Source of the DNA: Spirosoma fluviale
Lineage (GTDB): Bacteria; Bacteroidota; Bacteroidia; Cytophagales; Spirosomataceae
Direction: 5' to 3'
Assembly (NCBI GenBank): GCA_945901025.1
Contig: CAMDJW010000002.1
Location: 186,001 to 250,000, forward strand
Length of the DNA stretch: 64,000 bases
Shown in pieces: positions 24,666 to 62,041 of this stretch; positions within the stretch are counted from its first letter, which is position 1, and every line of letters starts with the position of its first letter. The translations under genes and the position numbers were made by a program. Below the pieces are notes generated by a model. That model made no database searches. It was not told where the DNA came from and worked only from the letters and a program-made list of their open reading frames with translations.

Positions 24666-24717
24666 CTTTAGCCTAGCTTTACTAACTTTTGAAAAGTTAG
24701 TAAAGCTGGGGCTAAAG
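24666..24717. repeat. palindromic repeat, copy 1 (REP-like hairpin)
   Basis: The inner arms AGCTTTACTAACTTTT and AAAAGTTAGTAAAGCT (24675-24690 and 24692-24707) are perfect with a 1-nt loop. Outer arms CTTTAGCC and GGCTAAAG (24666-24673 and 24710-24717) also pair. The same inner palindrome occurs at 60662 and 61404, flanking a RAYT gene. It lies between the convergent mntR and SNF2 genes. No T-run follows on either strand, so it is not a standard terminator. Confidence 0.85.
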
Positions 24718-59906: not shown

Positions 59907-60626
59907 ATGAAAACTGAACTTCACCCAGCAAATACACGAGGCACCGCAGATCATGGTTGGCTCAAAACCGCCTACAGTTTCAGCTTTTCCTCCTATTATA
60001 ACCCGGCGCGGATTCATTTTGGTGCATTACGTGTATTGAATGACGACTATGTCGCTGGAGGAATGGGATTTGGAAAGCACCCCCATGACAATATGGAAAT
60101 TGTCACAATTCCACTAAAAGGTGCGCTAGCCCACGAAGATTCAGCAGGAAATAAAGGGATCATTCAAGCGGGTGATGTACAAATCATGTCTGCAGGATCT
60201 GGGATTCAGCATTCTGAATTCAATGCAAGCCCAACCGAGCCCGTTGAGTTATTTCAAATTTGGGTCATGCCAAAACTGAAAAATATTACTCCCCGGTACG
60301 ACCAAAGAACCTACACTCCCACCGATTTTATAGGCCAATGGAAAACGGTCGTATCGCCTTTGGATTCCGATATAGATTCACTTCAAGTAAATCAAGACAC
60401 CTATTTTAATCTAACAGAACTGGATTTAAACGAAACGCTTGAATACAACCTGCATGGGCCTCGCCAAGGAGCCTTTCTAATCGTGATCGAAGGTTCCATG
60501 GATGTGGCAAATAATGCACTTGGCCGGCGCGATGCGATTGGGATCTCAGAAACTGATCTGATTCAAATCAAAGCGACCACATCTAAAACCAAAGCGCTTT
60601 TAATTGAAATACCAATGGTATGGTAA
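59907..60626 (+). CDS. pirin-family protein
   Basis: A 239-residue two-cupin protein. The metal-binding set of the first cupin is complete: H58, H60, H102 and E104 (KHPHDNME and GIQHSEFN). Some bacterial pirins (YhhW) have quercetin 2,3-dioxygenase activity, others regulate metabolic enzymes, so the role is open. A single gene; a palindromic repeat lies 35 nt beyond it. Confidence 0.92.
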   Translation: MKTELHPANTRGTADHGWLKTAYSFSFSSYYNPARIHFGALRVLNDDYVAGGMGFGKHPHDNMEIVTIPLKGALAHEDSAGNKGIIQAGDVQIMSAGSGIQHSEFNASPTEPVELFQIWVMPKLKNITPRYDQRTYTPTDFIGQWKTVVSPLDSDIDSLQVNQDTYFNLTELDLNETLEYNLHGPRQGAFLIVIEGSMDVANNALGRRDAIGISETDLIQIKATTSKTKALLIEIPMVW

Positions 60627-60661
60627 AAAGTTGATTTGGAGAAAACAGAGCTGCTCCTACA

Positions 60662-60694
60662 AGCTTTACTAACTTTTACAAAGTTAGTAAAGCT
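60662..60694. repeat. palindromic repeat, copy 2 (3' flank of RAYT)
   Basis: Arms AGCTTTACTAACTTT and AAAGTTAGTAAAGCT (60662-60676 and 60680-60694) are perfect, with loop TAC. It shares the inner arm sequence of copies at 24675 and 61404, but lacks their outer arms. It ends 3 nt before the stop codon of the RAYT gene. Confidence 0.85.
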
Positions 60695-60697
60695 ATA

Positions 60698-61291
60698 TCA
60701 TTCTAAATCTATATAATTAGAAATATCCAATTCATTGGTATTATTCAAATGAAACAATTTGAATTCATCTATTCCGCCAAACCAATTTATAACTTTAAGA
60801 GGAGAAACAATTTTCCTGTTTTTCTTTAAAATTGCATTATACGAACTCCACTTCCAAGTACGAAAATCATAAACAACTTCATGTTTTTGCGGATTATTAT
60901 GTATGTAATGAATAAGCTTGCTTACATATTCATCACTATCCACATGTACACGTTTATAAGGCTTTTGGAAAAGCGTGCCTGTCCTTGAATGTTGAAGATT
61001 AAATGCTAATGCATAAGATTGAAACAACCTTTGTAAATTATGGGCTATATAATCATGCGTTGATCCAGCAGTTTTATTAAATCTAACATTTACCAAAAAA
61101 TGATAATGATTTCCCATCAAGCAATATGCATAAACATCAAAACATTTACCCATATACTTCATCCACCTTCTTAAAAAGAACTCATAATTTTCACTAGACT
61201 TAAACAGTAATTTTTTGTCTATTGACCGATTGTATATATAGTAAAATTTGCCCTGTTCAAATTTTGTATGATAATGTTCCAGATGAGCCAT
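60698..61291 (-). CDS. REP-associated tyrosine transposase (RAYT, Y1 HUH family)
   Basis: A 197-residue Y1-type HUH transposase. The HxH metal motif is H62-Y-H64 in MGNHYHFLV; Y93 in LFQSYALAFN is the candidate catalytic tyrosine, in the place typical for RAYTs. KPYKRVHVDSDEYVSKLIHYIHNNPQKH (about 110-137) is characteristic of the RAYT group. RAYTs are domesticated, non-autonomously spreading relatives of IS200/IS605 enzymes that act on REP hairpins. Here palindromes stand on both sides (60662 and 61394). The frame is complete, with no sign of decay. Confidence 0.92.
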   Translation of the reverse strand: MAHLEHYHTKFEQGKFYYIYNRSIDKKLLFKSSENYEFFLRRWMKYMGKCFDVYAYCLMGNHYHFLVNVRFNKTAGSTHDYIAHNLQRLFQSYALAFNLQHSRTGTLFQKPYKRVHVDSDEYVSKLIHYIHNNPQKHEVVYDFRTWKWSSYNAILKKNRKIVSPLKVINWFGGIDEFKLFHLNNTNELDISNYIDLE

Positions 61292-61393
61292 TTTGATTTT
61301 TTCAAAATATACACTGTTTGCTTGGTTTAAAATAATGCAAGGATTTGATTATCAATAAATTGATTTAATTTATCTAGGTGGTTGTTTTAATTT

Positions 61394-61445
61394 CTTTCGC
61401 TTTAGCTTTACTAACTTTTGAAAAGTTAGTAAAGCTTAGCGAAAG
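61394..61445. repeat. palindromic repeat, copy 3 (5' flank of RAYT)
   Basis: Inner arms AGCTTTACTAACTTTT/AAAAGTTAGTAAAGCT (61404-61419 and 61421-61436) match copy 1 exactly, including the 1-nt G loop. Outer arms CTTTCGC/GCGAAAG (61394-61400 and 61439-61445) pair although they differ from the outer arms of copy 1. It lies between the RAYT start (102 nt) and the siroheme-synthase-like gene stop (17 nt). Confidence 0.85.
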
Positions 61446-61462
61446 GGGTAAAAGTACATGAC

Positions 61463-62041
61463 TTATTTCTTGAAAGTCAAGCCCTTAGTGAGTTCATTTA
61501 AAGCCTTAATTTTTGCCTCAAAATCGCCTTTCAGTGATTTTCGATAAGCTTCTAAGCCATCCATGGATTCTTGAATGTCCATAGGGATTACGTCTTCCAA
61601 AAAAGCTCTAATCCGTTTAGCTAATGTAGGCGACTTCCCATTCGTTGATATAGCTATCTTTAAGTCGCCTTTTTGAACAATCGAACCTAAATAAAAATCA
61701 CATAAATCTAGAGTATCAGCCACATTGCAAAGTAAATGTTGGCCGGCAGCTAAGATCTTGATTTTTTGATGCAATTGAACATTATCTGTCGCACAAATAA
61801 TTAAGTCGCGGCCATCTAAATCCCCCTCTAAAAATTCGCGAATTTCAAAACTAACCAAAGGGAACTTCTTGATAAATTCCATAGTATCTTCCCTAAAAAA
61901 TGTGGCCACCATTGTAACACGCGCTTCAGGGGAATTGCGTAAAATAGCAGAGACTTTTTCTAGGGCTACATTTCCCCCGCCAACGACCAAGGTGTTCAAT
62001 TGGTCAAGCTTTAAAAAAATAGGGAATAAGGTGTTTGCCAT
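61463..62041 (-). CDS. precorrin-2 dehydrogenase / siroheme synthase N-terminal-type protein
   Basis: A 192-residue protein of the CysG N-terminal/Met8p type, with the NAD-binding loop VVGGGNVALEKV (19-30) and a middle domain with AISTNGKSPTLAKRIRAFLE (about 130-149). It oxidises precorrin-2 to sirohydrochlorin and may insert iron for siroheme of sulfite or nitrite reductase. It lacks the methyltransferase half of CysG, which must be elsewhere. It starts 3 nt after the rlmN stop. Confidence 0.87.
   Translation of the reverse strand: MANTLFPIFLKLDQLNTLVVGGGNVALEKVSAILRNSPEARVTMVATFFREDTMEFIKKFPLVSFEIREFLEGDLDGRDLIICATDNVQLHQKIKILAAGQHLLCNVADTLDLCDFYLGSIVQKGDLKIAISTNGKSPTLAKRIRAFLEDVIPMDIQESMDGLEAYRKSLKGDFEAKIKALNELTKGLTFKK

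Follow-up and report, generated by a model that had tools for sequence, protein, structure and literature searches.

RAYTs (REP-associated tyrosine transposases) are viewed as domesticated transposases, and what the host gains from them is unclear. They are described as single-copy and vertically inherited (PMC8049555) and as coevolving with REP sequences whose abundance is associated with the cognate RAYT (PMC2817692), and REPINs, in which two inverted REPs form a unit, were defined in PMC3116915. RAYTs of Bacteroidetes make up most of subclass 2.6 (Quentin et al. 2018, PMC6006769; group 5 of Bertels), the genes of which are described as flanked by atypical secondary structures that lack GT[AG]G and are repeated elsewhere in the genome. 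That account does not support the proposal, made in the first-pass annotation of the DNA analyzed here, that a Bacteroidota version of REP-RAYT pairs might be undescribed. RAYT genes in Chryseobacterium are discussed in PMC11194056, in the text of which the word palindrome is absent.

We analyzed a stretch of 64,000 nucleotides from Spirosoma fluviale (the window), which carries a RAYT-type gene on the minus strand at positions 60698 to 61291. The open reading frame is complete, as first annotated, and encodes 197 amino acids from an ATG start. Its Y motif, YIHNNP (residues 129–134), agrees with the YIH[QN]NP of subclass 2.6. However, its HUH motif is NHYH (residues 61–64) rather than NH[LIV]H, it carries FQ where the table for subclass 2.6 has WQ, and 68 residues separate HUH from Y versus a median of 82 in that subclass (PMC6006769). 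Across an alignment of 11 RAYT sequences, H62, H64, and Y129 are invariant, and inserts of variable length lie between HUH and Y. All 11 proteins match NCBIfam model NF047646, which the window RAYT matches over nearly its full length (E 2.6e-13, 50.1 bits). Because this score is below the curated cut-off of 80 bits, we call the gene RAYT-type and not an NF047646 equivalog. The match to Pfam Y1_Tnp (22.2 bits) falls just under the cut-off of 23.

A PDB search with the single RAYT sequence gave no match, and no PHROG matches were found. An AlphaFold2 model built from the 11 sequences (mean pLDDT 71.6) has as its top PDB match 4er8, a structure of E. coli TnpAREP together with a REP hairpin (E 3.2e-7, TM 0.57/0.67), and further matches are mostly to IS200/IS605-type transposases and Thg1 enzymes. 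Judged by its motifs and this predicted structure, the gene has the HUH and single-tyrosine motifs and the Y1 fold of a RAYT.

The gene is bracketed by two copies of one palindrome, which we designate type A and which spans 33 bp (AGCTTTACTAACTTT-NNN-AAAGTTAGTAAAGCT). The copy just past the RAYT stop codon (copy 2, 60662–60694, loop TAC) ends 3 nt from that codon and has no outer stem, as the longest paired run in its outer flanks is 2 bp; site and loop are identical in 7/7 aligned genomes, own included. The copy upstream of the RAYT (copy 3, 61404–61436, loop TGA) is extended by an 8-bp outer stem, CTTTCGCT/AGCGAAAG (arms 61394–61401 and 61438–61445), through a 2x1 internal loop. With this stem it covers 61394 to 61445, starts 102 nt from the RAYT start codon, and retains the stem in 8/8 aligned genomes, again counting its own. 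A dispersed copy (copy 1, 24675–24707) lies between convergent gene ends and likewise has an 8-bp outer stem, CTTTAGCC/GGCTAAAG (arms 24666–24673 and 24710–24717); this copy, at 24666 to 24717, is present in six aligned genomes, own included. The internal loops of copies 1 and 3 are both asymmetric and comprise 3 nt. All six inner arms of the three copies match exactly, and the sole other window match to the palindrome 15-mer carries three mismatches. Both the bracketing and the 15-bp inner arms common to the three copies were therefore correctly noted at first pass.

The further copies on which the first-pass annotation had staked its reading are also present. Own genome G000 (2.64 Mb, 98.6% complete) holds 20 type A copies and one RAYT, and a reversed control pattern found none. 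Over the 33 bp, 17 of the 20 are exact and three carry a symmetric AGC..GCT to AAC..GTT change, and none of the 20 has a mismatch at any of the 24 paired positions of the 27-nt core. A simple ORF call places one copy within an ORF and 19 outside. Of the latter, 8 are flanked by convergent gene ends, 5 by divergent gene starts, and 6 by genes in tandem. A RAYT gene flanked by two palindrome copies, and a dispersed palindrome with one RAYT per palindrome type, are features of a REPtron, and both are present here. The REPIN arrangement was not seen in G000, where the only copies less than 1 kb apart are the pair around the RAYT. The GT[AG]G at the hairpin foot of a canonical REP is missing from type A: of 87 copies, none has it in the 8 nt that precede the palindrome, whichever strand is read, and seven have it in the preceding 20 nt.

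We then compared 38 genomes of the genus, in which the relatives include MAGs filed under Cytophagaceae, Cytophagales, or Spirosoma fluviale; the isolate names suggest that the named relatives are of freshwater origin. Four RAYT types (A, B, C, and D) and four palindrome types were found. With a search pattern that allows three or fewer mismatches and no indels, the type A palindrome was detected in 11 genomes (copies: G000, 20; G006, 18; G007, 8; G010, 22; G018, 6; G019, 13; G026, 16; G032, 13; G034, 14; G035, 5; G036, 4). The type A RAYT (89–100% identity) was found in eight of these 11 genomes, in G034 interrupted by a contig end, and in no other genome. The expectation that RAYT and palindrome go together was thus borne out, with the palindrome in 8/8 genomes carrying the type A RAYT versus 3/30 others.

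Diverged RAYTs (47–52% identity) occupy the same locus in 16 genomes, and a comparison of coordinates shows that one sirohaem-synthesis gene adjoins the RAYT in all 24 genomes with type A, B, or D. The palindromes that bracket six of the 16 are of type B (AGATTTGACAACTTT arms), and those around the other ten are of type D (A[C/G]CTTTGCCAA[A/T]CC arms), at L050 in a variant form that misfits the D pattern and is excluded from D counts. The type B palindrome is present in 6/6 genomes with the type B RAYT, at 14 to 19 copies each, versus 0/32 others. The type D palindrome is present in 10/10 genomes with its RAYT, at 5 to 11 copies each, versus 1/28 others, the exception being a single copy in G030. 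Type C is a paralogous RAYT (40–47% identity) in the same six genomes as type B, and its palindrome (AACGCTGTCAAGGTT arms) occurs in 6/6 of them, at 40 to 51 copies each, versus 0/32. Fisher tests that ignore kinship gave p values of 3e-6, 4e-7, 4e-7, and 2e-8 for the co-distribution of types A, B, C, and D, respectively. Palindromes stand on both sides of the RAYT at seven type A loci (L047, at a contig end, has one side only), at six type B loci, at ten type D loci including L050, and at the five of six type C loci that were read, with one side seen in L068. The stems of types A and B are perfect and do not have the bulge or mismatch of a canonical REP, type C stems are mixed (25/47 perfect in G002), and a single A-A/T-T mismatch is retained by almost every type D copy listed.

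Further diverged RAYTs (36–38% identity) occur in G009, G014, and G030, of which the G030 locus was the one read for palindromes. Outside the genus, four of five distant RAYT loci carry B-like palindromes; the fifth, L181, has no palindrome by the criterion used, and its RAYT reads through stops. In L178 (407–1024), from an uncultured Bacteroidetes MAG, a B-like palindrome lies in frame within the RAYT ORF. Within the genus, one internal stop codon interrupts the RAYT frames of G015 (L062, type B) and G022 (G022:C5:128716-129285, type C), and the palindromes persist.

These features resemble, but do not coincide with, those of several described systems. The window locus shares with subclass 2.6 the flanking structures without GT[AG]G and their genomic copies, but the structures of that subclass are called weaker, whereas types A and B are perfect palindromes of 15 to 16 bp (PMC6006769). 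Judged from the published description of subclass 2.6, the window RAYT may belong to it. Subclass 2.4, which also occurs in Bacteroidetes, is described as carrying REP sequences within the RAYT reading frame, like L178, and variable inserts between HUH and Y, but it has a canonical GT[AG]G foot that is absent here, and its HUH and W motifs differ (PMC6006769). Group 3 REPtrons of Stenotrophomonas and Marinomonas have perfect-palindrome REPs, as here, that are recognized by the RAYT, but their reported stems are 8 and 5 bp with GTAG, versus 15 to 16 bp without it (PMC8266576).

The E. coli TnpAREP/REP system (4er8) has the same fold and a gene bracketed by inverted palindrome copies, although sequence similarity to the window RAYT is weak (profile E 0.086). 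The E. coli REP is reported to require a bulge and GTAG (PMC8266576). Because type A palindromes have neither the GTAG nor the stem mismatch needed by the E. coli enzyme, strand choice would have to be made another way. TIRtrons, with their TIRYTs, are RAYT-like genes with non-GTAG inverted repeats that are genome-repeated and in some cases self-complementary, as here, but the text consulted contains no Bacteroidota example and no type-by-type co-distribution (PMC3733652). In the literature searched, of which most subscription papers were not part, we came across neither these palindromes, nor outer stems of this sort, nor the dyad described below, and the palindrome strings matched text only in papers that by title concern unrelated subjects. 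REP-RAYT systems of Bacteroidota as a kind are already published.

The bracketing, the near one-to-one distribution of types, and the fold similarity to TnpAREP, observed alongside the copy counts and the conservation of paired arms, lead us to conclude that the window pair is very probably a Bacteroidota REP-RAYT pair, or REPtron, with its own dispersed palindrome family. Palindromes and RAYTs are both inherited, and shared descent therefore accounts for part of the association. In such a system, a Y1/HUH enzyme that is single-copy and vertically inherited would serve a palindrome family of its own, dispersed through the genome. It would most likely bind the palindrome as a single-stranded hairpin and cut and rejoin DNA beside it, and the palindrome would thereby have been copied to about twenty, mostly intergenic, places over evolutionary time. 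Divergence of the RAYT in situ at one locus was accompanied by exchange of the palindrome for another sequence, and loss of the RAYT would be followed by palindrome decay. That close relatives with a diverged RAYT carry a different palindrome suggests that each enzyme has evolved together with a palindrome matched to it.

Several observations sit less well with the REPtron interpretation. No clean ancestral empty site was found at the sites searched, the NF047646 and Y1_Tnp scores are under their curated cut-offs, and the contrast with genomes that lack the RAYT is thin, being firm in G018 and resting on a 3-kb contig in G035 and a contig end in G036. In addition, palindromes at one site (L015) have decayed also in RAYT-bearing G006, G010, and G026, and G015 (type B) and G022 (type C) keep their palindromes despite the stop in the RAYT frame. 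One locus in one genus offers three diverged RAYTs with three cognate palindromes. Together with the paralogous fourth pair and the loss of the RAYT from one genome or more, these provide a set of natural cases in which to ask what the enzyme recognizes, how enzyme and palindrome change together while staying matched, and what becomes of the palindrome once the enzyme is gone.

Outer stems such as those of copies 1 and 3 are common in type A. A stem of at least 6 bp is present in 11 of the 20 G000 copies, whereas when the flanks were re-paired 5000 times such stems numbered 1.1 on average and never more than 6. The G000 stems are 7 to 9 bp and are stacked on the core via a small, mostly asymmetric internal loop. 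Across genomes, 42/76 type A copies have one, a count that includes orthologues and hence copies that are not independent. Among copies read of the other types, none had such a stem (0/24 of 106 type B copies, 0/13 of 279 type C, and 0/29 of 82 type D), and a type B copy that this pattern missed, in L062, continues outward in a contiguous extension of 6 bp. The outer arms of type A are nearly constant at each site across species and are unrelated between most sites. They were thus probably set at the birth or insertion of each copy and not by compensatory drift.

One possibility, which we hold only tentatively, is that the arms were inherited from the target, with the RAYT inserting the palindrome into the loops of pre-existing hairpins such as terminators. 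Stems of about 8 bp that are site-specific and joined to the core by a small internal loop, asymmetric in most cases, are as this origin would predict. However, no pre-insertion site with both arms but without the core was found; the emptied 24675 site has one arm but is probably a deletion between TTTAGC repeats; and one site group, with ATGTCC arms, shares both its outer arms and its neighboring sequence, as if the arms had travelled with the core.

A rather more doubtful origin is palindrome growth, in which the replicating strand would fold back on the hairpin and copy its flank across, during or after insertion. Changes in type B are symmetric in all 75 listed copies from G002, G004, G005, and G012 (26 with no mismatches and 49 with two in matching positions), the AGC..GCT and AAC..GTT variants of type A are of the same form, and both L017 copies contain a 9-bp motif twice in one arm, with an imperfect doubling in the opposite arm. 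Free growth would not be expected to yield the fairly uniform 7- to 9-bp stems of G000, nor to leave types B, C, and D nearly without outer stems, and the changes in type C are often one-sided (22/47 copies of G002).

Conservation of the core also supports the REPtron interpretation. Among 118 orthologous pairs of type A copies, drawn from 87 of the 139 copies and not independent of one another, the paired core differs in 4/2832 cells over 24 positions, whereas loops differ in 80/354 cells and flanks in 11.4%. If the core changed neutrally, as fast as the flanks, 8% of the pairs that can be detected would be mismatch-free, and this conservation is conditional on detection, because it concerns recognizable copies and decayed palindromes bearing indels escape the pattern. 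The type A copies seen are either intact or plainly decayed. Most compared sites are common to several species, and palindrome turnover therefore looks slow. We considered concerted evolution of the copies but do not take it to explain them in general. In G000 the loop triplets are uniform (18/20); in G006 and G010 they are not, and agreement there is more frequent between orthologous sites (5/14) than among the copies of one genome (0.22 and 0.25).

Arms far more conserved than flanks would also be expected of host regulatory hairpins (terminators, mRNA stabilizers, or protein sites), to which the RAYT would be a mere neighbor associated by descent. The eight G000 copies between convergent gene ends and the sharing of most compared sites between species fit this idea. 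However, it leaves unexplained why four RAYT types match four palindrome types, with three of the RAYT types in one orthologous locus. Moreover, no terminator-like sites were found at 60500 to 61700 and no Rfam matches within the window, and of 14/38 genomes in which no A, B, or D RAYT was found, ten are also without A, B, and D palindromes. We consider such hairpins an improbable explanation. Least credible of all is the suggestion in the first-pass annotation that one ancestral outer arm changed by compensatory drift under hairpin selection, since, although the arms of copies 1 and 3 do differ and yet pair over 8 bp each, and one two-sided change within a site (ATATCC/GGATAT to ATGTCC/GGACAT) is of the expected kind, the stems are site-specific: their arms change slowly within a site, most sites have no outer-arm sequence in common, and the inner arms are nevertheless identical.

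If the locus is a REPtron, genomes without the RAYT bear on the fate of the palindrome. In G018, the RAYT and both of its palindromes are absent inside a 210-kb contig, with about 10 to 12 nt in their place. A 3-kb contig of G035 shows a similar junction without the RAYT, and the two genomes may share one loss. The RAYT status of G035 is nevertheless unsure because a second contig ends just past the neighboring pirin gene, and in G036 the locus is cut by a contig end. Copies number 4 to 6 in G018, G035, and G036 and 8 to 22 in RAYT-bearing genomes (Mann-Whitney p 0.009, with events that are not independent). The first-pass annotation would have been refuted by palindromes equally common without the RAYT, and this is not what the counts show, with firm RAYT absence limited to G018. 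In that genome, the palindrome at the L006 site is symmetrically changed, the one at L007 has lost one half, and the 24675 one is gone.

The 24675 palindrome is absent from the aligned place in both G018 and G035, where the emptied site keeps one outer arm only. We rejected this site as a pre-insertion state. Trees put G018 and G035 among RAYT-bearing genomes, and the gap is therefore read as a loss; the inner forks of the clade are mostly unresolved, and one starred fork (99/97) joins G018 and G035 with G000 and G026. A clean ancestral empty site was not found at the L015 and L155 sites searched. At the L015 site, other sequence replaces the palindrome in three genomes, and RAYT-bearing G006, G010, and G026 have altered palindromes with indels that the search pattern missed.

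Some minor features of these assemblies were recorded. The same altered palindrome (ACTAAATTT/AAATTTAGT, with a short loop) is present at the L015 site of G026 and the L006 site of G018 and could represent a subtype of its own. In G018, a 4.5-kb contig (L145, G018:C22), which bears one of the six copies of that genome, is 99% identical to G026, whereas another shared locus is 92 to 93% identical, and contamination of the G018 MAG by this contig is possible. Two G035 contigs (L078, G035:C13, and L147, G035:C335) carry the pirin gene that adjoins the RAYT locus, one ending just after it and one continuing without the RAYT, and this MAG may mix two strains.

An exact ATCA-N6-TGAT dyad lies at 61351 to 61364, between the RAYT start codon and the upstream palindrome, with its center 46 nt from the palindrome. 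Within 120 nt of the palindrome, the exact dyad occurs at 11/35 type A site groups (0.63 expected) and the dyad with at most one mismatch at 28/35 (5.7 expected), the expectations being drawn from random window places that are mostly coding and not intergenic. Among spacers of 2 to 11, only 6 stands out. Some spacings are preferred: at ten sites, partly alike in sequence, 51 nt separate the dyad center from the palindrome, and at eleven other sites the distance is 46 to 47 or 38 to 41 nt. The exact dyad is also present in 6/6 type B RAYT loci, at 92 to 94 nt, and a dyad is present in most type D RAYT loci, at 47 to 48 or 58 to 59 nt. At dispersed copies the exact dyad is rarer (B, 1/11; C, 2/6; D, 1/11). 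IHF-type sites were considered as an alternative, but the signal is weak and the dyad explains the sites better: exact IHF-type sites occur at 6/35 (1.4 expected; maximum of 5 in 60 shuffles) and those with one mismatch at 25/35 (16.5 expected; maximum 23).

We suggest that the dyad is a putative protein site by which an otherwise perfect palindrome acquires polarity. Perfect palindromes could then obtain their strand choice from outside the core, by way of the asymmetric internal loop and the one-sided dyad. Speculatively, and on balance we think it unlikely in full, the mobile or maintained unit would be bipartite, consisting of the perfect palindrome, in type A its outer stem with the asymmetric loop, and the one-sided dyad, with polarity read outside the core. 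The outer stem would then be free in sequence but kept in structure, and the RAYT, or else a protein of the host, would dock at the dyad. If true, this would be a scheme of REP recognition unlike the GTAG guide.

Palindromes of type D also form local arrays, with six copies at G024:C4:5415-5813 and four at G028:C20:11527-11882, each within about 400 bp, an arrangement like that of BIMEs.
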